Origin: an uncultured Opitutaceae bacterium | GTDB lineage: Bacteria; Verrucomicrobiota; Verrucomicrobiia; Opitutales; Opitutaceae | DNA length: 45,720 nucleotides | Direction: 5' to 3' | NCBI GenBank assembly: GCA_937942145.1 | Contig: CALDFV010000028.1 | Span: 1-45,720, forward strand | Part shown: positions 3,686 to 45,399 of the stretch, piece after piece | Layout: each line of letters starts with the position of its first letter | Numbering within the stretch: position 1 is the first letter of the stretch | Translations under genes and position numbers: made by a program | Notes under the pieces: model-generated | The model's input: the letters and a program-made list of their open reading frames with translations, nothing else | Database searches by the model: none | Told to the model about the DNA's origin: nothing

Positions 3686-5044
3686 TTAGTTGGATTGCCC
3701 ATGCCCAACACTTCCCGGCCCCCAAAGAGGTGTGACCAGCTCCGATTCCCAAGCTTCCATTTTAGCCAAGAGTTGCTTGAGGACCTTTGGGTTTTTTGAG
3801 GCCAAATTTTGGGTCTCTCCAATGTCGGTGCTTAAATCGTAGAGCTCAGGCGTATTGTCCGAGGTATTACGCGCGAGCAATTTCCATTTTCCTTCTTGCA
3901 ACGCGATAGGACCGTTGAGGCCACTTCTGCGCCAATATAACGTACGCTTGGGAAAACGGCTTTCCAATTTATTAAACAAAGGCAAGAGGCTGGCGCCGTC
4001 TAAGGCCCATTCGGGATCAACCTTTTCACCTCCTGCTTCAAATATCGTCGGCAATATGTCCATTGTGATAACGGGGGTTGTGATAACTGATCCCGGTTCA
4101 ATGACTCCGGGCCATGACATCGCCCAAGGAACACGGATACCGCCTTCGTAGAGACTCCCCTTGTGTCCTCGTAATGGGTAATTGCTTGTGGAGTCCTTGC
4201 CGCCAGGACCTCCATTGTCATTCGTGAAAATCACGATAGTATTATCGTTCAAGCCATTGTTTTGAATCGTTGCTAAAACTTTTCCCACATTGTGGTCCAT
4301 CGCCACAATCAGGCCAGCGTAGTTCCTGCGCGCGTCATGCTTGATATGCGCTATGCGTTCTGCATCGTAGCTCCCTTTGCGAGGCTCGAGCGGTCCATGT
4401 GGAGCCGTGAACGATACAAAGAGATAAAAAGGGTCTTGTTTGTTCTGCTCGATGAAGTCGCATGCGGCATCTCCAAGTCGATCTGTCACGTATCCTGATT
4501 CTGGGGTCGCCATACCATCGATTTGCAGGACTCTATCGCGATGTGGTTTAGCATAGGGGTAATAGCTCCGCGAACCCTGAAGGAGTCCGAAAAAGTGGTC
4601 GTACCCACGGCGATTGGGATGGAATTCAACGGGATAGCCTAAGTGCCATTTACCGATGAGGGCGGTTTTGTAGCCAATTTTTTGCAGTCGTTTGACTCCA
4701 AAAGTCTCTTTCAATGGAAGCCCTGATTGGGTGCCCGGAGGTAAATTGGTCTCATGACCAAACCGCTCCTGATAGCGCCCCGTCATCATTCCTGCTCTAG
4801 AAGGGGAGCATACGGCACCCGTTACATAAGCTTGCGTAAAACGCGCTCCCGCTTTCGCAATACTATCAATATGAGGGGTTAGCTGAGCCATATCGGGTTG
4901 GACGCTTTCTTGAAATCCAAAGTCGGCGTATCCGGAATCATCAGCGAAGAGAACTACCACATTGGGTTTTTCAGCGGCATTGCCGACAACGGCATAAATG
5001 GGAATTCCGAAAAAATGGAATAGCTTTTTGTAGAATGAGCTCAT
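3686..5044 (-). CDS. exported arylsulfatase (sulfatase family S1)
   Basis: This 452-aa protein has a hydrophobic leader ending near NAA and then EKPNVVVLFADD, the first metal-binding block (Asp35, Asp36). Cys79 in C-S-P-S-R is the residue converted to formylglycine. GKWHLGYPVEFHPNRRGYDHFFG and FTNDNGGPGG follow in the expected order. These are the substrate and metal loops of arylsulfatase A-like enzymes. The length is normal and nothing is missing. It should remove sulfate from a sugar or aromatic ester in the periplasm or outside the cell. It points toward the propeller gene at 2283-3614 and is divergent from the amidohydrolase operon at 5281, with 236 nt between them that could hold both promoters. 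The exact substrate cannot be read from the sequence. Confidence 0.92.
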   Translation of the reverse strand: MSSFYKKLFHFFGIPIYAVVGNAAEKPNVVVLFADDSGYADFGFQESVQPDMAQLTPHIDSIAKAGARFTQAYVTGAVCSPSRAGMMTGRYQERFGHETNLPPGTQSGLPLKETFGVKRLQKIGYKTALIGKWHLGYPVEFHPNRRGYDHFFGLLQGSRSYYPYAKPHRDRVLQIDGMATPESGYVTDRLGDAACDFIEQNKQDPFYLFVSFTAPHGPLEPRKGSYDAERIAHIKHDARRNYAGLIVAMDHNVGKVLATIQNNGLNDNTIVIFTNDNGGPGGKDSTSNYPLRGHKGSLYEGGIRVPWAMSWPGVIEPGSVITTPVITMDILPTIFEAGGEKVDPEWALDGASLLPLFNKLESRFPKRTLYWRRSGLNGPIALQEGKWKLLARNTSDNTPELYDLSTDIGETQNLASKNPKVLKQLLAKMEAWESELVTPLWGPGSVGHGQSN

Positions 5045-5280: not shown

Positions 5281-6630
5281 ATGCATTGCCTTAGTCCTCC
5301 TGAAAAAGTCCTTTCCACGTGGCTTAGTCTCCGAAGCGTTTGCCTTCTGGTTTTAATGTCGTTAGGTTTTTCACTCGCTTGTAACGCTCAGAGTTACGAC
5401 CTCTTGCTTAAAGGGGGCCACGTGATTGATCCGAAAAGTGGTCGTAGCGCGTCACTCGATGTAGCGATTCAAGGAGATCGTATCGCCGCGGTTGCTGAGT
5501 CAATTTCAGCCAGCGACGCGCGAAGCGTCGTTGATGCGACTGGTCTGTATGTGACACCCGGTTTGATCGATTTACATGCCCATCTGTACTGGGGCACGAA
5601 TAATGGGACTGCATGGGCAAACAGCTTCAGCGCGCTGCCACCCGATGGATTTACGCTTCAGTACGGGGTGACAACCGCGGTGGATGCCGGTGGCTCTGGT
5701 TGGAGGGATTTTGAAACGTTCAAGGAGCAGACAATTGACAATTCCAAGACGCGGGTGAAAGCCTTTCTCAATATCGTGGGAGGAGGAATGAGGGGAGACC
5801 CTGAAGAACAGGACTTGGCGGACATGGACGCCAAGCTCGCGGCCATGAAGGTTTACGAATTCCCAGAGTATATTGTGGGAATAAAGGTGGCTCACTACAA
5901 AGGGCCCGACTGGACTCCGGTTCGTCGCGCAGTGGAGGCGGGCCAATGGGCGAAGGTGCCGGTTATGGTAGACTTTGGGCGGTCGCAGCCGACTCTGTCG
6001 ATCGAGCAGCTGTTTCTGAAAGAACTTAATCCGGGTGACATTTTTACCCATTGTTTTGCGGATGCGCTGGGACGGGAATCCCTTGTCGATCGATCTGGGC
6101 TGCTGAAGCCTTTCGTCATGAAGGCGATTGATCGAGGCATCATCATGGATGTGGGGCATGGTGGCGGAAGTTTTCGCTGGAACGTGGCCGTAGCCGCCTT
6201 GGAACAAGGAATGCGTCCCCAGACTATTAGTACGGACTTACATGCGGGTAGTATGAATCGAGGCATGAAGAACCAGCTCAATGTCATGTCCAAGCTTCTG
6301 AACCTTGGCATGAACCTAGATGAAGTGATTGAGGCCTCAAGTTGGAAGCCAGCCCAAGTTATCAGCATCGATGAGGATCTCGGTCACTTGAGCGTTGGAG
6401 CTTTGGCGGATGTCGCTGTTTTGCGGAGACAAGAGGGCGATTTCGGGTTTGTTGATGTGGCGGGAACGCGTTATGATGGAAAATACAATCTAGAATGCGA
6501 GCTGACGATTCTTGGCGGTGAAGTCGTGTGGGACCGGAACGGTCTCGCCAGTCCGGCTTGGGATGAAGTGAAACTGCCGCCTTCACCAGGGCGTCCCGAA
6601 GTGCAACCTTTTATTAATCCACCCAAATGA
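5281..6630 (+). CDS. exported amidohydrolase/deacetylase-family metallohydrolase
   Basis: This protein of 449 aa has a signal peptide (hydrophobic core about 20-33, possible cleavage after CNAQ). The amidohydrolase body starts at YDLLLKGGHVIDPKSGR. Metal ligands are visible as H99-x-H101 in DLHAH, then THCF, DVGHGGG and STDLHAG. The C-terminal small domain carries LGHLSVGALADVAVL, as in dihydroorotase-like enzymes. It resembles the amidohydrolase family that, in D-glucosaminate-type loci, accompanies a SelA/DgaE-like PLP enzyme, and that is what lies two genes downstream. Its last codons overlap the next gene by 4 nt (ATGA), indicating translational coupling. Expected role: hydrolysis of a cyclic or N-acyl amide in the periplasm. 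The substrate is unknown. Confidence 0.85.
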   Translation: MHCLSPPEKVLSTWLSLRSVCLLVLMSLGFSLACNAQSYDLLLKGGHVIDPKSGRSASLDVAIQGDRIAAVAESISASDARSVVDATGLYVTPGLIDLHAHLYWGTNNGTAWANSFSALPPDGFTLQYGVTTAVDAGGSGWRDFETFKEQTIDNSKTRVKAFLNIVGGGMRGDPEEQDLADMDAKLAAMKVYEFPEYIVGIKVAHYKGPDWTPVRRAVEAGQWAKVPVMVDFGRSQPTLSIEQLFLKELNPGDIFTHCFADALGRESLVDRSGLLKPFVMKAIDRGIIMDVGHGGGSFRWNVAVAALEQGMRPQTISTDLHAGSMNRGMKNQLNVMSKLLNLGMNLDEVIEASSWKPAQVISIDEDLGHLSVGALADVAVLRRQEGDFGFVDVAGTRYDGKYNLECELTILGGEVVWDRNGLASPAWDEVKLPPSPGRPEVQPFINPPK

Positions 6631-7190
6631 AATACAAACGAATCGATTCTCTCATTGGTTTAATCTGCCTTTATCTTGTTTCTACGCTTGGCATTGCCCA
6701 GAGCTTGATCGCAGCGCAGAATCCTGGATACGAGGCGAAAGCGAGAAGCCTCGGCATAGAATTCAATACGGCAGCCAAGCCGAACGATCACTTTGTTCCG
6801 GCCGTGACGACTGGGAACCTCGTTTTCCTTTCCGGACATGGACCTCGGAAACCGGAGGGGGGAGCCGTCCAGGGAAAAGTGGGCCGAGACTTGACGATCG
6901 AAGAAGGGAAGGAGGCGGCTCGTTTGACGATGATTGCTCTCTTGTCATCGCTGCGGAACGAGATTGGAAGCCTCGACCGTATCCGCCGCATCGTGAAGGT
7001 TCACGGGATGGTAAACTGTCCGACAGAGTTCACCCAGCAGCCAGCAGTGATGAATGGGGCCACCGCGGTGCTGACTTCGATCTTTGGAGATGCGGGAAAA
7101 CCAGCCCGGGCTGCGGTTGGAATGGGATCGCTGCCCAACAACATAGCGGTTGAAATTGAGATGATTGTGGAAATTTCGCCGGAGCAATAA
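6627..7190 (+). CDS. exported RidA-family (YjgF/YER057c/UK114) protein
   Basis: The 187-aa protein starts inside the ATGA overlap with the amidohydrolase. The first 30 residues form a signal peptide (hydrophobic core about 9-22). The remainder is a RidA-type chorismate-mutase-like fold: NLVFLSGHGPR, GKVGRDLTIEEGKEAARLT, VKVHGMVNC, and PARAAVGMGSLPNNIAVEIEMIVEI at the end. The Arg in PAR corresponds to the catalytic arginine of RidA, and the closing EIE is conserved. RidA proteins hydrolyse reactive enamine/imine intermediates released by PLP enzymes. The next gene, 3 nt downstream, is a PLP enzyme, which fits. Classical RidA is cytosolic and about 128 aa, so the extra length is the leader plus an N-terminal extension. 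Confidence 0.9.
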   Translation: MKYKRIDSLIGLICLYLVSTLGIAQSLIAAQNPGYEAKARSLGIEFNTAAKPNDHFVPAVTTGNLVFLSGHGPRKPEGGAVQGKVGRDLTIEEGKEAARLTMIALLSSLRNEIGSLDRIRRIVKVHGMVNCPTEFTQQPAVMNGATAVLTSIFGDAGKPARAAVGMGSLPNNIAVEIEMIVEISPEQ

Positions 7191-7193
7191 TCT

Positions 7194-8417
7194 ATGCTGA
7201 GCCGAAGGAAACTGATTAAACGCCTTTCGAGTCTCCCGCTTGTGGGTGGTTTTGTCTCGGGAGGGTTCCTGGCGACTGGATCGGCTCGAGCGGCGGAGAC
7301 CGCTGTACGCGACTATTTCGGAGAACTCGGAGTCCGGCCAGTGATTAATGCGGCCGGTGCCTACACGACTCTCACCGCAAGTATAATGCCGGATGAAGTG
7401 CTGGACGCCTATCGTCAAACCGCTGGGGAGTACGTATCCTATAATGAGTTACACGATGCAGTGGGAGAGAAGATCGCAGAACTGGTCGGCTGTGAAGCCG
7501 CGATGGTAACGGCCGGAGCGGCATCGGCTATGACCCTGGCGACCGCTGGAGTTTTGACCGGTTTAGACGAAGGAAAAGCCAAACGAATTCCGATCGATTT
7601 GAGCGGAATGAAGCAAGAAGTCATTGTTCAGAAAGCCCATATCGTGGGGTATACCCATGCCATTATCAATTGCGGGGTAAAATTAATAGTCGTGGAAAGT
7701 GAGCAGGCGTTGAGAGATGCGATCAGTGATCGTACGGCCATGTTGTATTTCACCGATGAGCATAGTCTGGATGGACCGGTCGGGCACGAGGCGTTCGTCG
7801 CTTTGGGGAAGGAACATGGAATCCCCACTTTTATCGACGCGGCGGCTTCGATTCCGCCTAAAGAAAACATTTCGAAATTCACCAATATGGGATTTGATCT
7901 GGTTGCCATCTCGGGCGGTAAGGCGATTCGAGGGCCTCAAAGCGCCGGTCTTCTGATGGGAAGAAAAGACCTGGTAGCGGCAGCCCGTTTCAACGGCCCC
8001 CCAACGTCTGACCGGATAGGTCGAGGGATGAAGGTGAACAAGGAGGAGCTCGTGGCAATGTGGATAGCGGTAGAGCGATTCATGAAGTCGGATTACGACA
8101 AGGAATACGAAACTTGGAAGACGCAAGTGGATTGGCTCAAAGATCAGCTGTCCCCAATTGAGGGCCTAGCGGCTGAAAGCATCATTCCCCAGAGTCCGAA
8201 TACGGTGCCGACCTTGCAGTTGACGCTTCAATCGGGCAGATTTTCTACGACGGGATATGAGATCCAAAAAGCGCTTCTTGAGGGCTCGCCTTCGGTTGCG
8301 GTGGCGCGGCCACGAGAAGATGGCTTTAATCTAACCACTTGGATGATGAAGCCCCAGTACTTAGCGACCGTTGCGATACGCGTAAAAGAGGAGTTGTTGA
8401 AAGCTAGGATAAGCTAG
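7194..8417 (+). CDS. Tat-exported SelA/DgaE-like PLP-dependent enzyme
   Basis: This is a 407-aa fold-type I PLP enzyme of the SelA-like/D-glucosaminate-6-phosphate ammonia-lyase group. It begins MLSRRKLIKR with a hydrophobic stretch and ARAAE, a good twin-arginine signal that suits a cofactor-loaded protein. GVRPVINAAGAYTTL is the family's N-terminal signature. Asp215 in FIDAAAS should pair with the pyridine ring, and Lys243 in ISGGKAIRGPQ is the Schiff-base lysine. A GGAG box lies about 11 nt before the ATG. True SelA is longer and works on tRNA in the cytoplasm, so selenium transfer is ruled out by the export signal. Likely chemistry is beta-elimination of an amino sugar acid or amino acid, releasing an enamine for the RidA partner. 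This is inferred from the family and operon. Confidence 0.85.
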   Translation: MLSRRKLIKRLSSLPLVGGFVSGGFLATGSARAAETAVRDYFGELGVRPVINAAGAYTTLTASIMPDEVLDAYRQTAGEYVSYNELHDAVGEKIAELVGCEAAMVTAGAASAMTLATAGVLTGLDEGKAKRIPIDLSGMKQEVIVQKAHIVGYTHAIINCGVKLIVVESEQALRDAISDRTAMLYFTDEHSLDGPVGHEAFVALGKEHGIPTFIDAAASIPPKENISKFTNMGFDLVAISGGKAIRGPQSAGLLMGRKDLVAAARFNGPPTSDRIGRGMKVNKEELVAMWIAVERFMKSDYDKEYETWKTQVDWLKDQLSPIEGLAAESIIPQSPNTVPTLQLTLQSGRFSTTGYEIQKALLEGSPSVAVARPREDGFNLTTWMMKPQYLATVAIRVKEELLKARIS

Positions 8418-8502: not shown

Positions 8503-9000
8503 GCTGAGAAGTATTGGCGTGTAACCGCTTCCGCTGCTATCGCGAATGACATTGCAGTGATTCCCTATGCTCGTGGAAACTCGATTGCCGGCATTAAGCT
8601 TGATAGCGGTACTTCCAGTGAGAGCTGGCTCTGGAAACGGGATGGATTGGGAAGCGACTCCTCAACGCCGATCATCAGTGACGGGCGAGTAATTATCCTT
8701 AAATACAGTGGACCGACGAGTGGCCGTGTCACTTGTTTGGACATACACAGTGGCGAGACCATCTGGGAATCGAATTTGCCCAAGTCCGCTAAGATTTTTT
8801 ATGCCTCTCCTGTTCTCGCGAACGATATAATGCGCGTTGCTCGCGAAGACGGAAATATTTTCACCGTTCGTGTTACTGATAAAGGTCTCGCCGATGTAAA
8901 AGAGTATCCACTACTTGAATCCATGATCGCTTCACCCATTGCGGTGAATGGAAAACTGCTCGTCCGCAGTGATCAGCATTTGTATTGCCTCGCTGATTGA
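8503..9000 (+). pseudogene. C-terminal remnant of a PQQ-like beta-propeller gene
   Basis: An open frame follows a stop at 8500-8502. It encodes KYWRVTASAAIANDIAVIPYARG and then blade-like segments (LDSGTSSESWLWKRDG, CLDIHSGETIWESNLP, YASPVLANDIMRVAREDGNIF), ending HLYCLAD. This matches the last two to three blades of the propeller proteins found intact at 13695 and 31240. The only internal start is a GTG at 8557 inside a blade, and there is no signal peptide. The first two thirds of the gene are gone, and the preceding sequence (8418-8500) has no recognisable propeller reading. A truncated dead gene is the simplest view. Confidence 0.75.
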
Positions 9001-9299: not shown

Positions 9300-10685
9300 A
9301 TGATTAAGGTTCGTGTCGTGAAATTCGTTTTCATCGCTTTTTTGCTTCTCTTTCCTTTTTTGCAGGGAGCTGAACGCCCGAACATCGTCTTTATCATAGC
9401 GGACGATCTCACTTACAGCGACATCGGTTGCTATGGGGGTGTGAATGTCGCAACACCGCATATCGATTCAATCGCGAGCGATGGGATGAAGATTACACGT
9501 TGTTTCCAGGCGTCGGCCATGTGCTCACCTACACGTCACAATATTTATACGGGTTTATATCCCATAAAGTCGGGAGCCTATCCAAATTCTACCTTAGCAA
9601 AGGAAGGTACCAAAAGCGTGGTGCACTTCTTGGGAGATCTGGGCTATCGAGTGGCCTTGACTGGGAAAAGGCACATTCAGCCCGAAAGCGTTTTTCCTTT
9701 TGAATATTTGAACGAGAAAGGAGATCCTGACCTGCAGGCTCTAGAGAGGTTCTGGTCGCAAGAGAGCGGACAACCCAGCTGTGCCTTTATCTGTTTTAAC
9801 GAGCCGCATACTCCCTGGACAAAAGGCGATGCATCGGAGTTCGATCCGGATAAGCTTGTTCTGCCTCCTTATTTTGTGGATACGGATGAAACTCGTAGAC
9901 AGCTGGTGAACTATTACGCAGAAGTGCAAGACCTGGACCAATCAGTTGGAAAAGTCATTGCCTTGCTAGACCGATTGGAGATGCGGGAAAAAACCTTGCT
10001 GATATTTGTCAGCGAACAAGGAATTGCCATGCCGTTTGCCAAGTGGACTTGTTATGAAAGCGGACTGCAATCTGCTTTTCTAGCCCGTTGGCCAGGAAAG
10101 ATTGCACCTGGAAGTGTTTCCAATGCGATGATCGAGTATGTCGATATCCTGCCCACTTTTATTGAGGTAGCCGGTGGGGCCTCCATTGAGGTGCTGGAAG
10201 GGGAGAGCTTTATGCCCGTACTTCTGGGTCAAAGGGAGCATCACAAGGATTATGCCTTCGCCTTGCAAACGACGCGTGGGATCAGCAATGGGTCGGAACA
10301 TTACGGTGTGCGTTCCATTCGTTCCCACCGCTACAAGTATTTGATTAACCTGACTCCAGAAACCAGGTTCCAAAACAATCTCACGGAGGATAAGGGAGGA
10401 TGGACCGCATTTTGGAAGACGTGGGTGGATGCGGCTAAAACAGACCCTTTTGCGGAAGAAACAGTTCACCGATACCAGTGGAGACCTGCAGAAGAGCTTT
10501 ACGACCTCGAGAGCGATCGCTACGAGTTCAACAATCTAGCGGGTCAAAAAGATCTAAAGGAGGTCCAGCACGATCTGCGTCGCCGCTTGCTCGAATGGAT
10601 GGATCAGCAAGGTGACTTAGGCCAGGAAACAGAAATGGCTGCCCTCAGCCGTACGTTCAAGCCCGGTGGAACGGCGGGTAAGTGA
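9300..10685 (+). CDS. exported sulfatase, N-sulfoglucosamine-sulfohydrolase-like
   Basis: A 461-aa protein with a signal peptide (hydrophobic core 9-23), then ERPNIVFIIADD (Asp35, Asp36) and Cys75 in AMCSPTRHNIYTGLYP. This CSPTRHN-type active site, followed by a short catalytic domain without the usual GKWH block, is typical of the heparan N-sulfatase (SGSH)-like group. GKRHIQPES at about 115 takes the place of the GKWH loop. Further conserved pieces are FNEPHTPW, YYAEVQDLDQSVGKVIALLD and SEQGIAMPFAKW. The C-terminal part, with its RPAEELYDLESDRYEFNNLA, is the family subdomain. It probably removes N- or O-sulfate from glycans outside the cytoplasm. Flanking repeats of families A and D lie in the gaps on both sides. 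A substrate assignment would need biochemistry. Confidence 0.9.
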   Translation: MIKVRVVKFVFIAFLLLFPFLQGAERPNIVFIIADDLTYSDIGCYGGVNVATPHIDSIASDGMKITRCFQASAMCSPTRHNIYTGLYPIKSGAYPNSTLAKEGTKSVVHFLGDLGYRVALTGKRHIQPESVFPFEYLNEKGDPDLQALERFWSQESGQPSCAFICFNEPHTPWTKGDASEFDPDKLVLPPYFVDTDETRRQLVNYYAEVQDLDQSVGKVIALLDRLEMREKTLLIFVSEQGIAMPFAKWTCYESGLQSAFLARWPGKIAPGSVSNAMIEYVDILPTFIEVAGGASIEVLEGESFMPVLLGQREHHKDYAFALQTTRGISNGSEHYGVRSIRSHRYKYLINLTPETRFQNNLTEDKGGWTAFWKTWVDAAKTDPFAEETVHRYQWRPAEELYDLESDRYEFNNLAGQKDLKEVQHDLRRRLLEWMDQQGDLGQETEMAALSRTFKPGGTAGK

Positions 10686-19287: not shown

Positions 19288-20544
19288 ATGAATAAGCGAG
19301 AATTCATAAAACAAATCGCAATGGTGGGTTTAGTGACCCCCGTTTTTTCCCGGCTGGAGGGAATCCTGCAGGCAGCGGAGCATTTGAGTCCGCTCGAATT
19401 GGCAAAGGATCATGAATTTTGGGCAAAGATCCGAGGCACCTACAAACTAAAGCCAGACTACATCAATTTGGAAAACGGTTTCTACTGCATTCAGCCCGAA
19501 GAAACGCTGGAACACTTTATTCAGCATGTTAGAGAGGTCAACTATCAGGGATCCTTTTACATGCGAAATTATCGGTTGGACAATAAGCAGCGTATTACCG
19601 AAAAGCTGGCGGAAATGATCGGCTGTGCTGGCGATGAACTGATCATTACAAGAAACACTACGGAATCACTGGATACGGTTATTGGTGGTCTCGATTGGAA
19701 TTCAGGCGACGAGGCAGTCTTGGCCAATCAGGATTATGGAGCGATGCGAAATATGTTCGAGCTCGTTGAAAATCGGTACGGAGTCGTTCGGAAGATCATA
19801 GATGTTCCCATGCATCCAAAATCCGATGACGAAATTGTTGAGATCTATGCATCGGCGATTACTTCGAAGACTCGATTACTGATGGTGTCACACATCGTGA
19901 ACATCACGGGTCACATCCTTCCCGTCCGCAAAATTTGCGACATGGCTCATTCCAAAGGAGTCGATGTTCTCGTCGACGGCGCGCATGCCTTCGGACACTT
20001 CAACTTCTCGATCGCCGACTTGGACTGTGACTATTATGGAAGCAGTCTCCATAAGTGGCTCAGCGTTCCGCTCGGGGCGGGCCTCCTGTATGCTAAGAAA
20101 AAGAATGTTCACAAAGTTTGGCCTCTATTTGCGGATGCTGCTCGAGAGGCGGACGACATTCAGAAATTGAATCACACGGGCACGCATCCCGTTCACACGG
20201 ACTTGGCTATCGCAAATGCGATCGACTATCACAATCGAATTGGGGGAGATCGGAAGGAAGCGCGGTTGCGCTACATTCAAAACTACTGGACGGATCAAGC
20301 CCGAAAGATGGAACATTTGGCGCTATACACTCCAAAAGAGCGGCATCGCTCCTGTGCTATTGCAACCGTGGGAATCAAGGGAATGGAACCTGCGGAAATG
20401 GCGAAAACCTTGCTGGACACCTATGGGATCTTTACGGTCGCTATCAATGGGGGCGGGGTCCGGGGTTGCCGCGTTTCCCCTAACGTTTTTACCAGCATTG
20501 AGGAAATGGATACGTTTGTAGAGGCGCTTAGATCCATGGGCTGA
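19288..20544 (+). CDS. exported class V PLP-dependent enzyme (isopenicillin-N-epimerase-like)
   Basis: A 418-aa fold-type I enzyme. The N-terminus MNKREFIKQIAMVGLVTPVFS has a KREFIK motif and a hydrophobic stretch, a weakened Tat-type signal (one arginine of the pair is lysine). LENGFYCIQPEE, TRNTTESLDTVI, VSHIVNITG and VDGAHAFGH (Asp230) are cofactor-site blocks. Lys256 in GSSLHKWL is the Schiff-base lysine. This matches the isopenicillin-N-epimerase/cysteine-desulfurase-like class V group. The gene converges with an exported RidA gene only 25 nt away, so enamine release by this enzyme and clean-up by RidA is the obvious pairing. The substrate is unknown. Confidence 0.85.
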   Translation: MNKREFIKQIAMVGLVTPVFSRLEGILQAAEHLSPLELAKDHEFWAKIRGTYKLKPDYINLENGFYCIQPEETLEHFIQHVREVNYQGSFYMRNYRLDNKQRITEKLAEMIGCAGDELIITRNTTESLDTVIGGLDWNSGDEAVLANQDYGAMRNMFELVENRYGVVRKIIDVPMHPKSDDEIVEIYASAITSKTRLLMVSHIVNITGHILPVRKICDMAHSKGVDVLVDGAHAFGHFNFSIADLDCDYYGSSLHKWLSVPLGAGLLYAKKKNVHKVWPLFADAAREADDIQKLNHTGTHPVHTDLAIANAIDYHNRIGGDRKEARLRYIQNYWTDQARKMEHLALYTPKERHRSCAIATVGIKGMEPAEMAKTLLDTYGIFTVAINGGGVRGCRVSPNVFTSIEEMDTFVEALRSMG

Positions 20545-20569: not shown

Positions 20570-21136
20570 CTATTCTTCCACTTCTACAATCATCTCAATC
20601 TCCACCGCAGCGCCCAGGGGCAGGGAGCTGAAACCGCTGGCGGCCCGAGCGTGTCTACCTTTGTCGCCGAATACTTCAACCATGAGATCGGAGCATCCGT
20701 TGATGACTTTTGAGTGATCGGTGAAAGTGTCGGTGGCGTTGACCATGCCGAAGACTTTGGCGATTCCTTTCACCTTAGAGAGGTCTCCGACTTCAGCCTT
20801 TAGCGTGGCGAGCAAGGCGATCGCTGAGAGGCGTGCTGCTTGATATCCTTCTTCGACGGTAAGGTCTTTTCCCAGCTTGCCGATGACAACGGATTTATCT
20901 TTTCGGAGTGGCAGGTGTCCCGAAAGAAAGATGGTGTTGCCAATGCGTCTAGCGCCCACGTAGTTGGCGATCGATTTGCTGGGCGTTGGAAGGTCGATGC
21001 CTAGTTTTTCTAAGTTAGCCTCTGGATTGGAGCCAGCGTGGTGAGCAGCGAAGCAGGATTGAGAAAGAAAAGGGAGTCCGATGGCAAGAAGGCCAGCGGC
21101 ATAGAACGAGTAGAATGAAGTTTTCATCTTTTGCAT
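20570..21136 (-). CDS. exported RidA-family protein, second copy
   Basis: A 188-aa protein with a leader of about 30 residues (core AAGLLAIGLPFLSQSCFA, also possible to start at 21127). The mature part is RidA-like: NTIFLSGHLPL, GKLGKDLTVEEGYQAARLSAIALLATLKAEVGDLSK, VKGIAKVFGMVN, HARAASGFSSLPLGAAVEIEMIVEV. The HAR arginine and EIE glutamate are conserved. It closely resembles the RidA at 6627-7190 in length, leader and shared blocks, so the two are probably paralogues or members of one exported subfamily. It is convergent with the class V PLP gene at 19288. It likely hydrolyses enamine/imine products made in the periplasm. Confidence 0.9.
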   Translation of the reverse strand: MQKMKTSFYSFYAAGLLAIGLPFLSQSCFAAHHAGSNPEANLEKLGIDLPTPSKSIANYVGARRIGNTIFLSGHLPLRKDKSVVIGKLGKDLTVEEGYQAARLSAIALLATLKAEVGDLSKVKGIAKVFGMVNATDTFTDHSKVINGCSDLMVEVFGDKGRHARAASGFSSLPLGAAVEIEMIVEVEE

Positions 21137-28087: not shown

Positions 28088-29536
28088 TCACCCTGCCTGA
28101 TCTAGCAGGTAGCTGGGTTCAATGTAGGGGTAGTCCGAGTCAAACTCAGTCAAGGGATGGGGGTTTCCCTCAATTGCATGAGGCCGCCTTTCGCTTCCAA
28201 GCTTGTTGCGCAACCCGTCTCCGATCCGGTCACCCATGTCCTCCATGCGTTTTTTGAGGTCCTTCACGATGTCGGGATGTTGGGCGGCGACATTGTTCTG
28301 CTCCGAAAGGTCTTTTGACAAATTGAATAGTTCGGGCTTGGACGTATCGACATCTCGTCCTTCAGCGGTGGCGAATCGCAATTTCCAATCCCCTACACGA
28401 ACTGCTTGAAGCTGATCGACGAGATAGTAGAAAAAGGCATCGTAGGGGTTTTGGGCTCCGGGTTCCCCTCTCCAAATCGGGCTGACATCATGACCGTCGC
28501 GGATCGGATCGTCGCCGAGCGGTTGTCCTAGGATAGCGGCGATAGTGGGGTAGAAGTCCATCGCAGTGACGAGCTCTTTGGAAACCGATCCCGCCTCGAC
28601 TTGCCCGGGCCATTTAACGATACAGGGAACGCGCATGCCGCCTTCCCACGTTTGGCCTTTGGTGCCACGCAAGGTACCGTTGCTGCCTCCGTGCTGGTCT
28701 ACCCGGCTGCCGTTGTCGGAAGTGAAAATAACGATAGTGTTGTCCTCGAGGCCGAGGCGTTTCAATTCGGCAACTATGACCCCCGTGCTCCAGTCCACCG
28801 CGGCTACCGCGGCACCGTAAATGCCATTGCGGGAAGCCTGGAGAAACGGGTCCATCACATAGTGCGGCAGGTGGACATGCATGTGAGCAAAATAAAGGAA
28901 GAAAGGATTCTCTTTGTTCTCCCGAATAAAAGTCACGGCCTCCTCGGTATAGCTTTGAATCAAGGGGGCCTGCTTGGGCTGCTCGGCGATGACCTCCTCA
29001 TTGCGCAAAAGGGGCAGAGGCGGGCTTTTCGGACGGCGAGGCATGATCGCCATATCATTACTGTAGGGGATTCCGTAATACGAATCGAATCCGTGCCGGG
29101 TGGGCAGGTGTTCCACTTGGTCTCCCAAATGCCATTTCCCCACATGACTGGTCGCGTATCCCTGCCACTTCAAGTACTCTGGTAGCAAGAGCTCATTTGG
29201 ATGGAGACCTTCGGCGAAGCCCGGAAACAGTACCCAGCTCGTGCGGCTTTCCTTGAAGGCGTCAAATCCGACCCGACCCGGATACCCACCCGTCAGCAGG
29301 GCGGCCCGCGACGGTGTACAGACGGGGCTGGCGGAATAATAGTCGGTAAAGCGCATGCCGTCCACGGCTAACTGATCCACGTGAGGCGTGTCGTTCTCAT
29401 CCGAACCGTAGCACCCGAGGTCCCCGTATCCTAGATCGTCCACGTAGATCAAGACAATGCTGGGCTTGCGCTCGCCTGCAGAATAAAGGGACGAGGGAGC
29501 AAACAAAGCTAGAAGAATCAAGATGGCGTATGGCAT
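28088..29536 (-). CDS. exported arylsulfatase
   Basis: The ATG at 29536 starts MPYAILILLALFAPSSLYSA, a signal peptide, and gives 482 aa. The frame extends to 29662 with unrelated sequence. KPSIVLIYVDDLGYGDLGCYG supplies Asp33 and Asp34. Cys73 is the formylglycine residue in C-T-P-S-R. GKWHLGDQVEHLPTRHGFDSYYGIPYSNDM is close to mammalian arylsulfatase A and galactosamine-6-sulfatase. FTSDNGSRVDQHGGSNG and LRGTKGQTWEGGMRVP follow. It should desulfate galactose- or N-acetylgalactosamine-type sugars. This is inferred from the subfamily loop only. No sugar-uptake genes are beside it. Confidence 0.92.
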   Translation of the reverse strand: MPYAILILLALFAPSSLYSAGERKPSIVLIYVDDLGYGDLGCYGSDENDTPHVDQLAVDGMRFTDYYSASPVCTPSRAALLTGGYPGRVGFDAFKESRTSWVLFPGFAEGLHPNELLLPEYLKWQGYATSHVGKWHLGDQVEHLPTRHGFDSYYGIPYSNDMAIMPRRPKSPPLPLLRNEEVIAEQPKQAPLIQSYTEEAVTFIRENKENPFFLYFAHMHVHLPHYVMDPFLQASRNGIYGAAVAAVDWSTGVIVAELKRLGLEDNTIVIFTSDNGSRVDQHGGSNGTLRGTKGQTWEGGMRVPCIVKWPGQVEAGSVSKELVTAMDFYPTIAAILGQPLGDDPIRDGHDVSPIWRGEPGAQNPYDAFFYYLVDQLQAVRVGDWKLRFATAEGRDVDTSKPELFNLSKDLSEQNNVAAQHPDIVKDLKKRMEDMGDRIGDGLRNKLGSERRPHAIEGNPHPLTEFDSDYPYIEPSYLLDQAG

Positions 29537-30159
29537 GGGCGTAAACTCACGCTTTTCCCGAGAATCGGCAAGTGTGCTTTTCCGGTAGCCTCGATAAACT
29601 AATATGGACGACTTGGGACATTCAAGTTGGCCCTGGCTGGACGAATTGCCAGATGCCCTCAAACTCTACTTAGTTTAACAATCGGACAAAAAAGTACCTT
29701 ACTCGCTTCAGCTTGAGCCACCTAGGAATTATGGTATAAGACTAGGGGAGCGACTAACAAATAGGGTTTCATTGATGTTAGGCCTACTTGTCCGTTCTGC
29801 TGAGATCGCGGCCCAAGCCCTAAGGATCCACAGCTGTTCGTTGATCCGCAACTGACTAAGGATAGCCAGCCTTACCTTAGAGACCAATCTGTGGTGTTCC
29901 TTTCATTGCATACCATTCAAACTTTCTTCTGCTTTCATTCGATCGCGGTGTTGTATGGGAACATGAAATTGGGAATGGTGAGGAGTGAAAAGGGGGTTCT
30001 CGTTGACAGGTTAGCAAGTGGAGGCGCAATGTGCTTTTTTTGACTGGCATGGGAATTTGGACGCATGGGAAGGTTATTGATGAGATAGTCTTTTAAAACC
30101 GCGATCGAAGAGCACCGACCACAAGAAGGTTAAGACTGTGCCTGGGCAACGATCTACTC
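29537..30159. other. gene-free gap between divergent sulfatase and DoxX-like genes
   Basis: No frame with a signal peptide, family motif or plausible start was recognised in these 623 nt. Around 29840-29880 a segment (GACTAAGGATAGCCAGCCTTACC) is loosely like 10990-11025, so decayed repeats may be present. The gap should contain promoters for both flanking genes, but I cannot single out a confident -35/-10 pair. Confidence 0.5.
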
Positions 30160-33368: not shown

Positions 33369-34817
33369 CTACCGCTCTGCCTGCCAATTTGGATTGGGTT
33401 TCGGCATCGAGGCGTTGACCTGCTTCCGCCAGTCGACGAGGGATTGCTGGAGTTTCTTGGCAATATGGGGCATGGAATCGGCTAGATTTTTGGTTTCCCC
33501 GATATCGGAATTAAGATCGTAGAGCTCAAGGCGGTTGTCCTCGAAGTACTCGAGCAACTTCCAGTTTCCCTGACGGATTGAGCTGACGGGTGTGGTGGTT
33601 CCGTAGTAGTGAGGGTAGTGCCAGAATAGGGTGTCTCGGTCGAGTTTGGACCGAGGGTCTTTCAAGAGAGGAGTCAGGCTCATGCCATCGAACTGACCTT
33701 CCATAGATAATCCTAAAATGCTGGCGATAGTAGGATAGAGGTCCATTGTGGCCACCGGCTCTTTCGATACGCTGCCTGCTTGGGTGACACCAGGCCAATA
33801 GACGATAAGAGGGACACGAACCCCTCCCTCGTAAAGGGAACCTTTACCTGACCTAAGGGGCGCGTTAGAAGTGACGACCTGGCCTTCTGACGAACCGATA
33901 AACCCGCCATTGTCGGACGTGAGAATAATGATGGTGCGATCTGCAATTCCCTCATTCTCTAGTTTTTCCAGAATGCGGCCCACGTTTTCGTCCAGGGTCT
34001 CGTGCATAGCGGCAAAGTGGGCATTCTGATGATCCATGCCTGGCTCGATGATTTCGGCGTAGCGGTCGGCGATTTCCGGCTTCCCTTCAATCGGCGTATG
34101 CACCGTGTAGTAGGACATGTAGAGAAAGAAAGGGTCCTCAGAAGCTCGCTCGATAAACCCCAATGCCTCATCGGTCAACCGATCGGTGAGATGCTCTCCC
34201 TCACGATCCTCGGTGGAGTCGATCCCAGGAATGTAGCGATAATGCCGATTGGAACCCCCTCCGTACATCCCTCGATAGGGAAAGTAGAAAGTGGCCGGAC
34301 AGCCCCAGAAACAGCCGCCGAAAGTGAAGTCGAACCCTTGTGTTTCGGGATAGTGGGAGGCTTCGCCGAGATGCCATTTTCCGACATGAGCGGTCTTGTA
34401 GCCCGCCCCTTTAAGGGTTTCGGCGATTGTGGTTTCGCTGTGCGGCAGATTGTTTTCCACGACTGGTGGGATGAGCTTCTTGTTCTGTTGAGGCCTCTTG
34501 GCCATTTCGTGCCAGATGGTCATGTCCAAGCGGGCTGGATACTTTCCCGTTAATAGAGCCGCCCTAGTTGGAGTGCATATTGAAGCGCTCGCGTAGGCGT
34601 TCGTGAATTTCATGGAGCGTTCGGCGAACTGGTCGATGTTTGGCGTGCGGTGCAAGTCCGAACCGTATCCACTCAGTCCTGTCCAGCCCATATCGTCGAC
34701 AAGGATGACAATGACGTTGAGCGGCTCTGCGTCTGTCTTGGCGTGGCAAACATTGTTCGATGGGGTTAGTCCGAAGGTAGCCAGACTAAGAGAGAGTAGG
34801 AACGGAAGGAATTTCAT
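33369..34817 (-). CDS. exported sulfatase, N-acetylgalactosamine-6-sulfatase-like
   Basis: A 482-aa protein with a signal peptide (MKFLPFLLSLSLATFGLTPSNNVCHA). The motifs are IVILVDDMGWTGLSGYG (Asp41, Asp42), Cys81 in C-T-P-T-R, GKYPARLDMTIWHE, VGKWHLGEASHYPETQGFDFTFGG, TSDNGGFIG and SGKGSLYEGGVRVPLIVYWPG. This composition is close to the GALNS/arylsulfatase A type. Everything needed for activity is present except the formylglycine enzyme. It should remove sulfate from polysaccharide sugars in the periplasm. It is divergent from the quinone-oxidoreductase-like gene at 35005. Confidence 0.92.
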   Translation of the reverse strand: MKFLPFLLSLSLATFGLTPSNNVCHAKTDAEPLNVIVILVDDMGWTGLSGYGSDLHRTPNIDQFAERSMKFTNAYASASICTPTRAALLTGKYPARLDMTIWHEMAKRPQQNKKLIPPVVENNLPHSETTIAETLKGAGYKTAHVGKWHLGEASHYPETQGFDFTFGGCFWGCPATFYFPYRGMYGGGSNRHYRYIPGIDSTEDREGEHLTDRLTDEALGFIERASEDPFFLYMSYYTVHTPIEGKPEIADRYAEIIEPGMDHQNAHFAAMHETLDENVGRILEKLENEGIADRTIIILTSDNGGFIGSSEGQVVTSNAPLRSGKGSLYEGGVRVPLIVYWPGVTQAGSVSKEPVATMDLYPTIASILGLSMEGQFDGMSLTPLLKDPRSKLDRDTLFWHYPHYYGTTTPVSSIRQGNWKLLEYFEDNRLELYDLNSDIGETKNLADSMPHIAKKLQQSLVDWRKQVNASMPKPNPNWQAER

Positions 34818-38850: not shown

Positions 38851-40593
38851 TTAGGGTGAATGTTCTAGGTATTGAGGATCTGTGAGGCTTTTCAGAAAGG
38901 CCACAAGAGCGCGTTGATCTGCTTCAGAAAGTTGAATGCCTTCTGGTGGATGCTTCGCCAGATTTGGATCTAATGTTTCACTATTGTGGATCCCGCTATT
39001 GTAGTGGGCAACCACATCCTCAAGTGTTGCTAGGCTTCCATCGTGCATGTACGGTGCGGTTAGTTCAATGTTGCGTAGCGAAGGGGTGGCGAACTTGAAT
39101 CGGTCTGAAACTTTGGCGGTGTATTCATATTTTCCCAAGTCTTTGGAGGGGAAAAGACCGTTGTTATGAAATTGGTTGTCGGTAAAAAGGGCTCCTCCGT
39201 GGCAGTGAAAGCAATCCGCGCCAAAACGGTTGGATCGAGGCTCGTACTCCGTCATGAAGAGTTCAAATCCACGTTTTTCCTCTTGGGTCAATTCGGTCTT
39301 TCCGGACATGGCTTCATCAAATCTGGAATGGTAGGAGACAAGTGTTAGAAGATAGTTCTCTAGGGCTAGTCCAATGTGTTCCTGGGTGATTGTTCCAGGG
39401 TTGAACGCCTTTGCAAAAAGTTCCTTGTAGCGAGGCTCCGCTTGTAGTTTTTCGATCACCTGGTCGACACTCGACCCCATCTCGTTCGGATCGAGGATAG
39501 GATGAAAGACCTGTTCGCGCAGGGAAGTTGCCCGACCATCCCAGAAGAACGCTTCCTTCCATGCCAGATTGAAGAGAGGCATAGAATGGCGCCTTGTCTT
39601 CGCGCTGTTCGTGCCCGTGCTTTGGATGCGACTATCGGAAAACGCGTTCTTCGGATTATGGCAGGTAACGCAGGAAAGGGTATTGTTCGTCGACAAGATG
39701 GGATCGAAGAACAGCTCTTTTCCCAGTTCTACTCGTTCGGTGAAAATCGGATTGTCAGTGGGGAGATCGGGCATTGGAAAATGCCGGCTCATTTTAAATT
39801 CACAAGGTGTGTAGAGATCGGGCAGGTCGATTGGCACTGCAGGAGTGGATTCCTTTTTTGGACGAAACTCTTGCATGCGATTGAGCTGCAACGAAACTGG
39901 CAGGTTTTGTTTTAGCGTGAGCGCAATGGCGTCTCCTTTGTGGGAATGTGTGGAGTAACCGTCACTTTGAAATGACAGTGATTGCGGGCTTCCAAGCGCC
40001 TTATTTAGATCAAACCCTAGCTCAATCAGGGTATGTTCGACGTGAGAGAGGTTGAGCGGCAAGTGGATCGAAACAAGATTATCGTCATTGGCCAAATGAT
40101 ACACGAAGCCACCGATTTTACCCTCGGGAAGTCTAACGCGTCCTTCTAGGGCCATGAAGATGTAGCCAGTAGCCCAGGTCCAGTGAAGGTTGTTGTAATC
40201 CGGATTGAGAGCGTGCCGAATCGGGTATTGGCTAGGGTCGGAGTGATTCAGATCTTCCGGTAATCCAATGTTGAATCGGATCGAGCGATAGGTATTGGGA
40301 GGTAGCGGAAAATCAATGCTTGTTAGGCCCCTGGCCGCATCGATGTATCCAATTGTGTCAACTTCAACCCAATTGCCACTATTGGTTTCAAGGGCAATTT
40401 CGCTGATGAGATAGCTGACGCGAGAAAGAGAATAAGTTTCGTCGCTTGTGGATTTGTACCGTAGTGAGTCGAGAAAAAGTGGTGCCCCGTCGAATTCGTG
40501 TGTGAACACCAGTCGCAAAGTGGGATCGTCCACTGCCTTTAAAAAGTGAAAAAGAGGACATAGGACCAATATTGATAGGACCCTGATTTTCAC
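38851..40593 (-). CDS. fusion of an MbnP-like copper domain and an MbnH/MauG-like di-haem domain
   Basis: A 580-aa exported protein (leader 1-20) starting at GTG inside the stop of the gene before it (GTGA overlap). Residues about 25-230 resemble MbnP: DEFDGAPL-type start, SRVSYLISEIAL, YRSIRFNIGLP, and LHWTWATGYIFMALEGR at 136-152 with Trp138 and Trp140. Residues about 280-575 are a MauG/cytochrome-c-peroxidase domain: ELGKELFFDPILS, haem sites C308-x-x-C311-H and C461-x-x-C464-H, FFWDGRATSL, PYMHDGSLATL. In known pairs the two parts are separate proteins, and the di-haem enzyme makes kynurenine from a tryptophan of MbnP. Here the substrate and enzyme would be one chain. Tyr531 (AHYNSG) may be the distal haem ligand, as in MauG; this is uncertain. 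No methanobactin peptide gene is near. Confidence 0.8.
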   Translation of the reverse strand: MKIRVLSILVLCPLFHFLKAVDDPTLRLVFTHEFDGAPLFLDSLRYKSTSDETYSLSRVSYLISEIALETNSGNWVEVDTIGYIDAARGLTSIDFPLPPNTYRSIRFNIGLPEDLNHSDPSQYPIRHALNPDYNNLHWTWATGYIFMALEGRVRLPEGKIGGFVYHLANDDNLVSIHLPLNLSHVEHTLIELGFDLNKALGSPQSLSFQSDGYSTHSHKGDAIALTLKQNLPVSLQLNRMQEFRPKKESTPAVPIDLPDLYTPCEFKMSRHFPMPDLPTDNPIFTERVELGKELFFDPILSTNNTLSCVTCHNPKNAFSDSRIQSTGTNSAKTRRHSMPLFNLAWKEAFFWDGRATSLREQVFHPILDPNEMGSSVDQVIEKLQAEPRYKELFAKAFNPGTITQEHIGLALENYLLTLVSYHSRFDEAMSGKTELTQEEKRGFELFMTEYEPRSNRFGADCFHCHGGALFTDNQFHNNGLFPSKDLGKYEYTAKVSDRFKFATPSLRNIELTAPYMHDGSLATLEDVVAHYNSGIHNSETLDPNLAKHPPEGIQLSEADQRALVAFLKSLTDPQYLEHSP

Positions 40594-43500
40594 TGAGGCA
40601 AATCGCTGTATCCGCCCCCGAGTTCGCTGTCTTTGGCAAGACAGGCATTGTAGGCTGCCAAAGCGGTTCCCTCAAGCGTCTGAATACTTAGGGGACTTTG
40701 TTCATTGAGATCAAATGCCGGGGATCCTACGTTGTAGAATTCGAAAGTTGGAGTGTCGGTGTTCGACGTGGGGTCGCCAAAGATGATTAGTTTGTAATCC
40801 GGATAGTCCCCAACTATGATTGCCCTTCCGTTCGTTGTTCCGGTACGCTCGGCGACAACAAATCGATCTTCGATATCAGTTCCTTTAAGGATGGGAACGA
40901 TGCTTTGTGAGCGGACACTTTGTGATGACAGGCTGGGAACTGCCGTCTCATCAATTCCAGCCAGCTCTAGGATCGTGGAAAACAAGTCGATACAGTGGAC
41001 TAGTTTTTCCGTTGAACTGCCCGCTTCCACATCCACCCATGGTCCTTTAGCGATCATGGGAACATGGATACCACCATTGTAGAGATCCCCTTTAGAGTTG
41101 CCTTCTCCAAAGGGTGCTTGGACAACTTGGTTAGGCGTTCCGTTGTCGCCTAGAAGAATGACTTGAGTGCGGGCAGGGTTGACGGCTTTCAGTAGTCGCC
41201 CGATCTCGGTGTCGAGCGCTTCCAGAGCTTTGCGATATCGGAACTGATTGTTTGATTCTCCTGGTTCTTGGATCGAGTACCCGCTGTCCGGAGCCAACTC
41301 AGAGGGCGGATCGTGAAAAGGGGTGTGGGGCGCGTTAAAGGCGACCCAAGCAAACCAGGGCGTTCCGTTGGCCTCGTTTTCTTCAATGAAAGTCGTCGCG
41401 TGGTTTACCTGATCGGTTGTCGAGTAGACTGTGGTATCAGCGGTTGTTCCGTTACTATTCTTGGTCCAATTGAAGTAGTCTTGCACACCACCGCTGTCTA
41501 TTCCGTAAAACTCCGGCCAGCCTCCACGCGAATTGTAGCCGTTATTCTGCCCGCCGAGGTGCCACTTGCCTACTGACAGAAGGCTGTGGGGGGCGTTCAT
41601 AGAAGTGAATATTTCAGGTAAGGTGATTTCGTCCTGACCATTTGAAAATAGGCCGCTGTCCTGGGGGGTACCGACATTATGTTGGAAGGGCTGTCTACCA
41701 GTAAGTATCGTTGCCCGTGTGGGTGAGCAAAGGGGTTGCGAGTAGGCACGCGTAAATCGCAGACCTTCCTCCGACAGTTGGCGCAGATTGGGCATAGACG
41801 CCAACAAGACGTCGGGCAGATCGTTATCTAGGGGACTCGCGTCCACTCCCCAGTCGTCCACGATCATTAGGAGAATGTTGGTGTGGACTGTGTAGGTCCC
41901 GCTCTGCGAAGTCTCGCCTGTATAAGTGGCAGTCAGGTTAAATTCGCCGATTCCCAGACTGTCTAGTGGAAAATCGAAAGTGATCTCGTTTTGTGTCGGT
42001 CGGGATACATTGGCATTCGCAATATTGATTGCGTGCCCCGCAAAGGTGAGCGTCGAGGGAAGTGTGCTCAGATTGGTGGGACCTCTTGACATCGAGATCG
42101 TAATTGACGAGAGTTCGCCGTTCAAGTCCGGTGGATTCATTGGCTCGTAATCGAAGCCACTATCGTCAAAAGGAGCGACATTCAGAGTTTCGACGCGATA
42201 GAACTTTCGCTGACTGCGTTCGGCTTCAGACGAATAGTTGAAGTTGACCTCGCTTCCACTCGCAACCACCTGCGGTCCAATTTCCTTCCAGTCATCACTT
42301 CCCCCTAAATCGGAAGATGTCTGTACTTCGTAGGTGGCTCCTTCGACGCCTGACCAAACTAGGGAAATCTCGTCTTCGGTAGGGTCGGTGAACTCGATGT
42401 GTTTAACTACTAGAGGAGTTTCGGGGCCTCCCTCAAAATATGTCTTCACGACAGCATTAGACTCATCATTCCCGGGAACGTCGTTTACGTTATCTCCGAT
42501 GGGGTCACCAAAAAACGAACGACCAATGTTGTATGGAAATACAGCTGTGCCTAACTCATCAATACAAACGAAATATGCCCATGTGCCTTCAGGAAATTCG
42601 GGTGTAACGCAAAAACGTGTATTGTATTCATTGAGATCGAAATCGATTCCCAAGGTTTGTCCCAGATCTCCGAGGTAGTCATTGTCTTCCATGTAGCGAC
42701 CAATCGGATACTGATTACTGACATTGGGACCAGAGGCAAAGGTTCTTAATCCTGAATAGATCCGAGTAGCCCAAGCAGGCCAAGTGGTTCGAGGCGAACC
42801 GTTGCTGGAGATATCGGTTCGGATTTGAAATCCCGAACGCATGCGACGAATTTCGCTAGAGTCGTCTAGTGGATCAGAGAAGGCATAAGGTCCATATACG
42901 GGAAGTCCATCGCGTGCCCAAGCGAGGATGGGCGAGTGCTTCCCATTGAAGTTCTCAGTGTAGGTGTTTGTTTCAGGATTGTAGTCGACACTGTCTCCGA
43001 GCTGGTGTCGCAAGGCGGGTGGGTTGGCGTGGTAGTGGTAGCGTCCCATTGCCTGGTGCGCGTTGCCCGAGTCGAAAGTGACGCTTTCATTGACAAACGC
43101 ATCACGATTCCAAGTTCCGTCTCCTTGTGGTCCGTTTACTTCGCTACCGGTAGACGACCGATACGAAAAGGCATCTCGCGAATCGAACATAGAGACGCCA
43201 TTGACGAAATATCCAATCGGTCCTCCACCTGTCAGCGTCTTTTGAGCGACGGACTCGGGATCGATCGGGTTGCGAGGTAGACGGTACAAAACCGATTGGT
43301 TGCTGGGGTAGTTGGGAAACAGGTTGGTCTTCGCTTGGTTGAGGTACCAGGGACCCATTATGTGGCTAGCGAGATTTGTAGTGCGAATGTATACCCAGGC
43401 ATCGGTGTAGCTAATTTCGTGGATCCCGGCGTAGGTAGGGACCGATTGTACCCCGGCGCCACGACTCCATGTGGTGACGGTGCTCAAATTTCCCTCGTCA

Positions 43501-45346: not shown

Positions 45347-45399
45347 TTGGATCCGGTGAGATTGTCCGTTCTTCTGTGCGGTTTTCCTCAAAATTTGAT

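Follow-up and report, generated by a model that had tools for sequence, protein, structure and literature searches.

A 45,720-nucleotide stretch of DNA from an uncultured Opitutaceae bacterium (contig CALDFV010000028.1 of assembly GCA_937942145.1; hereafter the window) contains three adjoining genes for an amidohydrolase/deacetylase family metallohydrolase (AH), a RidA family protein, and a pyridoxal phosphate (PLP) enzyme. The trio is a real and conserved operon whose products are predicted to be exported, AH and RidA by the Sec route and the PLP enzyme by twin-arginine translocation (Tat). AH (449 aa, 5281..6630, + strand) is a predicted exported N-acyl (or O-acyl) deacylase, RidA (187 aa, PF14588 type, 6627..7190, + strand) is a predicted exported imine/enamine hydrolase, and the PLP enzyme (407 aa, SelA/DgaE-type fold I, 7194..8417, + strand) is a predicted exported ammonia-lyase for an unphosphorylated beta-hydroxy amino acid. 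The AH and RidA genes overlap by 4 nt, and a gap of 3 nt separates RidA from the PLP gene, exactly as an earlier sequence-only reading of the window had described. The source assembly comprises 3.51 Mb in 320 contigs and is 88% complete.

The interpretation that we somewhat favour is that the three proteins work outside the cytoplasm on an N-acyl amino-sugar acid that carries no phosphate, for example N-acetylglucosaminate (GlcNAc1A), with AH as deacylase, the PLP enzyme as ammonia-lyase, and RidA as imine hydrolase. Gene order, predicted leaders, families, key residues, and linkage are read from sequence; the substrate, the reactions, and the action of RidA on the product of the PLP enzyme are what we infer.

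Export leaders of the three proteins

The N-terminus of the PLP enzyme (MLSRRKLIKRL...; MLSRRKLIKRLSSLPLVGGF) is a twin-arginine type leader, and the predicted Tat leader with its SRRKLIK motif covers residues 1-39 (7194..7310, + strand). The window enzyme thus has what marks a Tat substrate, a twin-Arg motif followed by a hydrophobic stretch, export itself being a prediction. A strict twin-Arg pattern was found in 82 of the 84 PLP open reading frames (ORFs) in the 80 related loci described below, the other two (L020, L022) showing RR by eye, and it gave no match elsewhere in the same 84 proteins. R4 and R5 were invariant across 31 aligned sequences, that of the window included, and the alignments began at residue 1 or 2 in 79 of the 80 best relatives and at residue 4 in L024. 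The leader has low confidence in the structure model, with a predicted local distance difference test (pLDDT) score below 50 at residues 12-35.

The N-termini of AH and RidA show a basic residue followed by a long uncharged hydrophobic stretch. Predicted Sec leaders cover residues 1-38 of AH (5281..5394, + strand; hydrophobic stretch SVCLLVLMSLGFSLA) and residues 1-31 of RidA (6627..6719, + strand); the start codon of AH is uncertain because a long segment of about 19 residues precedes the hydrophobic core. Comparison with two sister genomes, L020 and L019, showed that the AH leader shares 13/38 and 5/38 residues with them while the mature protein is 85% and 80% identical, and the RidA leader 10/31 and 4/31 while mature RidA is 92% and 89% identical. 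The hydrophobic character of both leaders was retained despite this divergence, and loss of sequence with hydrophobicity kept is usual for Sec leaders. The Sec, Sec, and Tat leaders proposed by the sequence-only reading are therefore borne out at the sequence level by the strict twin-Arg pattern and by leader divergence.

A loose leader rule was discarded. It fired inside the mature parts of 43/84 PLP, 24/73 AH, 5/36 glucose/sorbosone dehydrogenase (GSDH), and 4/22 RraA proteins and was brittle in its start-site patterns as well; because of these many false positives it was excluded from the counts, and the strict pattern and leader divergence were relied on instead. A second rule, run without a control, found a leader in 70 of 73 uncut AH, 35 of 38 PF14588-type RidA, and 21 of 22 uncut RraA proteins; it was unable to place the core in the PLP, PF01042-type RidA, and GSDH clusters, since their leaders are conserved or the anchor lies deep in the protein. 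GSDH N-termini, likewise scored without a control, were hydrophobic in 34/34 scored proteins and followed by Cys in 31, with 13 not scored.

Linkage and distribution of the trio

A scan of 84,980 species genomes returned at least 532 relatives of the PLP enzyme, and the best 80 were analysed as loci. By record title, 73 of these best 80 belong to Bacteroidota, 4 to Acidobacteriota (L063, L079, L080, L092), and 3 to Verrucomicrobiota (L019, L020, L028). Full flanks of at least 4.5 kb on each side of the PLP gene were available for 53 loci, which carried AH in 52, RidA in 50, both in 49, and RidA within 150 bp of the PLP gene in 46; the corresponding counts in the 27 cut loci were 17, 22, 16, and 21, all given without a formal chance level. 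Same-strand runs with gaps of at most 300 bp included, across the 80 loci, AH (68), PF01042-type RidA (47), GSDH-cytochrome c (41), PF14588-type RidA (36), RraA (22), BASS (20), CBM9 (19), SMP-30-like (10), SusC (7), and SusD (6) genes, neighbours being named mostly by Pfam or NCBIfam matches of one representative per cluster and SusC by eye. The operon posited by the sequence-only reading is thereby upheld by co-occurrence, and its judgement that such a combination is unusual is not borne out, because AH, RidA, and a Tat-type PLP gene stand together in 65 of the best 80 loci (49/53 full, 16/27 cut), mostly of Bacteroidota.

Recurrent gene orders are AH-RidA-PLP and GSDH-AH-BASS-RraA-RidA-PLP-RidA. 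Many clusters also encode a BASS/PanS-type carrier and exported-looking proteins of three further kinds, namely glucose/sorbosone dehydrogenase-cytochrome c, RraA-like, and lactonase-like proteins, and the neighbours in the relatives' loci (GSDH, SMP-30/gluconolactonase, RraA, CBM9, SusC/D) form a sugar-acid context. A Granulicella locus is arranged as RraA, PLP with a twin-Arg leader, RidA, second PLP, AH, and lactonase. Cultured hosts of the cluster include Arenibacter, Flagellimonas, Cyclobacterium, and Larkinella.

The trio is rare in the window's own phylum. A sample of 387 genomes of the phylum contained 8 with a relative of the PLP enzyme at E 1e-30 or better, namely the window's own and 7 others, whose relatives are 30-33% identical and align only from residue 38 or later. 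A search within the genus was positive in 3 of 11 genomes (its own, G001 with 77% and G004 with 90% identity), with the order of the trio kept, and L028 is a further Verrucomicrobiota assembly with a relative among the best 80.

In a first phylogenetic tree, built without 7 leaderless plasmid rows because the motif used was too narrow, a branch with support of 100/92 set 86 exported rows apart. In a second tree, which sampled 46 of the 86 exported rows, these were separated from all 24 leaderless-type rows by a branch with support of 100/99, L132 being classed as exported on its twin-Arg N-terminus. The sampled exported PLP enzymes thus group together. Since the exported rows were drawn from a similarity-ranked list, this is compatible with a single origin but no proof of one. 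Sinomicrobium and Imperialibacter loci (L058, L068, L074, L076) hold a second, diverged PLP copy, and these four copies form a clade of their own inside the exported group.

Enzyme families and the proposed route

AH passes the curated cut-off of the NF006689 profile (423.4 bits, cut-off 371), and its nearest solved chain is 2ogj (E 3.5e-53). The metal-ligand motifs H99xH101, K202, H257, H293, and D319 are all present, and we take these residues to bind metal as they do across the amidohydrolase superfamily. Simple patterns searched in 76 AH ORFs, cut ORFs included, recovered HxH in 75, S[TS]DxH in 74, K in 59, GHG in 54, and TH in 39. The window RidA passes both PF14588 (54.5 bits, cut-off 35) and PF01042 (49.6 bits, cut-off 27.3), scores below the cut-off of TIGR00004 (32.9 against 106.25 bits), and has 3d01 as its nearest solved chain (E 8.4e-30). 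It carries the motifs EIEMIVE and PARAAV, the latter with the catalytic-type arginine R161, which is by motif the equivalent of the Arg105 essential for imine hydrolysis by RidA (PMC4433059, seen in part); the terms periplasm, signal peptide, glucosaminate, and amidohydrolase gave no match in a search of that text. The catalytic-type Arg is found as xAR in 37 of 38 PF14588-type RidA neighbours, a pattern present in 0/51 of the PF01042-type cluster, where it sits in PPVR in all 51.

The PLP enzyme passes PF03841 (SelA; 31.8 bits, cut-off 22.8), and its nearest solved chains are 8t7j (Cap15, E 5.5e-29) and 7lc0 (DgaE, E 9.4e-28). A model based on 31 aligned sequences (mean pLDDT 86.5) gave the same order in VIA comparison, with Z values of 39.4 for 8t7j and 37.1 for 7lc0, followed by SelA at 25.6; the name Cap15 for 8t7j comes from a Foldseek search. 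Cap15, also of the SelA-like family, is the closest fold (root-mean-square deviation 2.0, 29% identity over 350 aligned residues); unlike the window enzyme it is leaderless, the alignment beginning at model residue 36, and by title it is oxygen dependent. DgaE shares with the window enzyme the fold, the PLP-binding Lys, the carboxylate Arg, and 25-26% domain identity, whereas its phosphate-site arginines and His163 are not kept in the window enzyme, which has a Tat leader and falls below the NCBIfam cut-offs.

DgaE residues are numbered here after the accessible part of PMC9529869, where the lysine is given as Lys-217, but the PLP-Lys motif of the 7lc0 chain lies at 213. The PLP-Lys corresponds to K243 in the window and is kept in 84/84 exported ORFs; the carboxylate Arg226 corresponds to R257 and is R in 45 and K in 39 of the 84. 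The phosphate-site arginines of DgaE named in that source align to T340, A371, and W383 of the window enzyme, and across the 84 ORFs Arg301 is mostly replaced by S/T/Y, Arg332 by V/I/A, and Arg346 by W/F, which fits an unphosphorylated substrate. An Arg stands one residue past A371, so the mismatch at Arg332 could be an alignment slip. H190 of the window enzyme aligns to His162, one column before the DgaE proton donor His163, and 10 of the 84 ORFs also have a His there, so a loop shift could hide a His; the His162 column holds N, Q, or A in 64 of the 84.

Leaderless relatives occupy comparable neighbourhoods. Fifteen plasmid loci were inspected, 3 of them unannotated (Niallia, Paraburkholderia, Ochrobactrum). 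On plasmids of the Alphaproteobacteria Aminobacter, Salipiger, and Sagittula, leaderless AH, RidA, and PLP genes adjoin ABC transporter genes, so that the three families of the window trio share one neighbourhood; these sets differ from the trio in lacking leaders, in their transporter genes, and in IclR regulators in two of the three, and their PLP enzyme, unlike the exported clade, retains His162/His163 and two of the three phosphate-site arginines. RidA accompanies the PLP gene in Thalassospira, Ochrobactrum, Rhizobium beringeri, and Paraburkholderia. No RidA was found within 4 kb of the PLP gene in Streptomyces, Haladaptatus, Natrononativus, R. gallicum, or Niallia, the last of which pairs AH with PLP. 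The Halorussus PLP gene neighbours a PIG-L deacetylase, a glucose 1-dehydrogenase, an MR/MLE enzyme, and a Rid protein. In G040, from the same taxonomic order as the window, the leaderless order is RraA, PLP, and AH with no RidA within 4 kb of sequence, and L012, a leaderless relative from Verrucomicrobiota, has PLP, RidA, and a DHDPS-family gene. These neighbourhoods point to sugar-acid chemistry that may end in a 2-keto-3-deoxy acid aldolase. A rule linking loss of His163 to the presence of RidA was also tried; 9 of 14 leaderless-type plasmid relatives keep His163, 7 of those 9 with RidA within 4 kb, and 2 of the 5 without His163 have a Rid gene (L130, L133). Since the idea thus fails as a general rule, it was not used as evidence.

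The ong cluster of Pseudoalteromonas prydzensis likewise brings deacetylase, PLP deaminase, and RidA genes together. OngB deacetylates GlcNAc1A to glucosaminate, OngC yields 2-keto-3-deoxygluconate (KDG) and ammonia without prior phosphorylation, as is proposed for the trio, and the RidA gene OngD is essential for growth on GlcNAc1A (PMC9537276, seen in part). According to the same partial source, OngB and OngC are predicted to be cytoplasmic, behind an SSS-family importer, and are D-aminoacylase-like and of fold type III, respectively; the window trio differs in bearing predicted export leaders on all three proteins and in combining an NF006689-type AH with a fold type I, SelA-like PLP enzyme. 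The accessible part of a later paper on OngB (PMC12017989) mentions neither periplasm nor RidA in a term search. In work on Natrarchaeobius, a DgaE-type enzyme has been predicted in haloarchaeal GlcNAc use, via a phosphorylated substrate (PMC12343721, seen in part). Because the trio fills by family the same three roles as ong in export form, deacylation, elimination, and imine hydrolysis are proposed to proceed outside the cytoplasm. We read the exported form as a variation on the deacylase-PLP-RidA logic already known for oxidised amino sugars. Literature searches, mainly of titles and abstracts and covering few subscription journals, found no description of an exported AH-RidA-PLP trio and turned up nothing of use on the biochemistry of the AH family.

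For the proposed route, the Sec-exported metallohydrolase would take the acyl group off an N-acyl amino-sugar acid, GlcNAc1A or an epimer being the best guess. The PLP enzyme would gain PLP in the cytoplasm and be exported folded by Tat, a course known for PvdN and PtaA of pyoverdine maturation, PLP enzymes that are folded with their cofactor before Tat export (PMC6206403, seen in part). Those enzymes differ from the trio in their role in siderophore tailoring and their PLP families, and a RidA or amidohydrolase partner is unmentioned in the accessible part of that source. The freed 2-amino-3-hydroxy acid would then lose its C3 hydroxyl by elimination on the PLP enzyme, and exported RidA would convert the resulting enamine or imine to a 2-keto-3-deoxy acid and ammonia. 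A mechanism of C3 hydroxyl loss, enamine formation, protonation, and imine release has been proposed for DgaE; the product that leaves its H163A mutant is the enamine, a kind of compound that the authors tie to RidA (PMC9529869, seen in part). RidA belongs to the window operon, whereas the dga set, as described in that part, is accompanied instead by phosphotransferase system genes and an aldolase. In the clusters of many Bacteroidota, the exported dehydrogenase-cytochrome c and lactonase-like protein would act before the trio, and the exported RraA-like aldolase and BASS-type carrier after it. The link to amino-sugar acids drawn by the sequence-only reading is accordingly backed by relatives, namely DgaE, ong, and the dehydrogenase, lactonase-like, and aldolase neighbours; the chemistry continues to be deduced from family.

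A wider and more doubtful extension, which we regard as possible, is that Bacteroidota and their relatives carry out an entire non-phosphorylating Entner-Doudoroff-like catabolism of amino sugars outside the cytoplasm, from oxidation to RraA cleavage and BASS pyruvate import, so that RidA chemistry would also operate there. The dehydrogenase with its cytochrome c would oxidise the amino sugar, the lactonase would open the product, AH would deacylate it, and deamination would fall to the Tat-exported PLP lyase, aided by one or two RidA proteins that are likewise exported, after which the exported RraA-like aldolase would split the 2-keto-3-deoxy acid and the BASS-type carrier would import pyruvate. 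RraA-like proteins with leader-like N-termini, judged by eye, are encoded elsewhere in G000, G001, and G004, and these unlinked proteins are weakly compatible with the extended pathway; each of the three genomes also has one copy of GH20.

Several observations weigh against the amino-sugar-acid route. The literature searched contains no assay of a member of the exported clade and no export experiment. The window trio sits among sulfatase-like genes, which give no amino-sugar signal, and the GSDH, RraA, and GH20 homologues of the window genome lie on other contigs than the trio, so that the extended pathway is seen only in the clusters of other species. AH is not OngB-like, as PpOngB (9kb1) matches just residues 37-101 (E 3.1e-4), and a relative of AH reportedly prefers acetyl-(R)-mandelate. 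The PLP enzyme scores below both NCBIfam DgaE cut-offs (TIGR01437, 160 against 385.3 bits; a second model, 137.9 against 600), its top structural match is the oxygen-dependent Cap15, slightly ahead of DgaE, and the position of His163 is a gap in 80 of the 84 exported ORFs and W in 4. The Cap15 match, best in both sequence and structure, and the unaligned proton donor would suit an oxygen-dependent PLP enzyme that is no ammonia-lyase, RidA then hydrolysing an imine formed by oxidation. We consider such chemistry quite improbable: elimination is favoured because the RraA, DHDPS-family, and BASS neighbours would use a 2-keto-3-deoxy acid, and L126, which by eye has a Cap15-like active-site loop, falls beside DgaE and outside the exported clade in trees built without Cap15.

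The same exported logic might instead serve an N-acylated D-beta-hydroxy amino acid that stems from peptides or cell wall, for instance N-acetyl-D-serine or N-acetyl-D-threonine, and this we hold to be unlikely. The four nearest solved relatives of AH are labelled dihydroorotase, amidase, adenine deaminase, and dihydroorotase, none of them sugar enzymes, and a relative of AH is said to hydrolyse N-acetyl-D-serine weakly, which would favour such a substrate; so would the cytosolic analogue OngC, which also deaminates D-serine and D-threonine (PMC9537276, seen in part). Sugar-oxidising, lactonase-like, CBM9, RraA, and SusC/D neighbours argue against it, as do the haloarchaeal relatives adjoining glucose dehydrogenase and MR/MLE-type enzymes. 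That the trio proteins remain in the cytoplasm or membrane behind non-functional leaders is very improbable. The Sec leaders were judged by our own sequence rules, whose loose form gives many false positives, and to that extent a cytoplasmic location gains; it is opposed by the twin-Arg leader in 84/84 PLP ORFs and, by the strict pattern, in 37 of 51 PF01042-type RidA neighbours (all 8 of the 14 misses that were inspected show RR by eye), by the AH and RidA leaders, which diverge quickly yet stay hydrophobic, and by eight annotated leaderless plasmid relatives, which begin just 2-11 codons ahead of the DgaE match. The extracytoplasmic route on an N-acyl amino-sugar acid is thus the one we retain.

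Other genes of the window and biological meaning

Six sulfatase-like genes were recognised in the window by cluster-profile match and named by eye (337-1845, 3686-5044, 9300-10685, 28088-29662, 33369-34817, and 40590-43628), and a seventh (45311-45720), identified in the same way, is cut by the window end; 6 of the 80 relative loci carry the sulfatase-like cluster as well. Downstream of the trio, a 147-aa remnant (8557-9000, + strand) corresponds with 73% identity to residues 271-417 of a 417-aa PQQ-type beta-propeller, similarity extending upstream to residue 251; G004 has an intact copy of the beta-propeller gene downstream of its trio (L002:2928-4181). A 3-keto-disaccharide hydrolase domain protein (PF06439; 11271-12074, - strand) and an SMP-30/gluconolactonase-like protein (PF08450; 18092-19045, - strand) both have leader-like N-termini by eye. 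A second exported-looking PLP and RidA pair is encoded by convergent genes, an aminotransferase class V protein with a leader-like N-terminus (19288-20544, + strand; best NCBIfam match PvdN, 140.5 against 650 bits) and a PF14588 RidA with a Sec-like leader (20570-21136, - strand). RidA adjoins the class V PLP gene in 2 of 6 loci, the window's own and L149, as judged from 1.5 kb flanks with L148 cut.

The accepted role of RidA is to protect PLP enzymes of the cytoplasm from reactive enamines and imines. If a conserved RidA is indeed exported next to a PLP enzyme that leaves by Tat, the same hazard, or the same demand for rapid imine hydrolysis, would also arise outside the cytoplasm, which PLP must reach on the folded enzyme. 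The trio would then be a second solution to the GlcNAc1A problem, built from enzyme families unrelated to those of the cytoplasmic ong route, and would unite in one function genes whose annotation is now piecemeal. If the extended cluster holds as well, some marine and soil Bacteroidota would take an amino sugar to pyruvate before carbon import, with ammonia and acetate freed outside the inner membrane.

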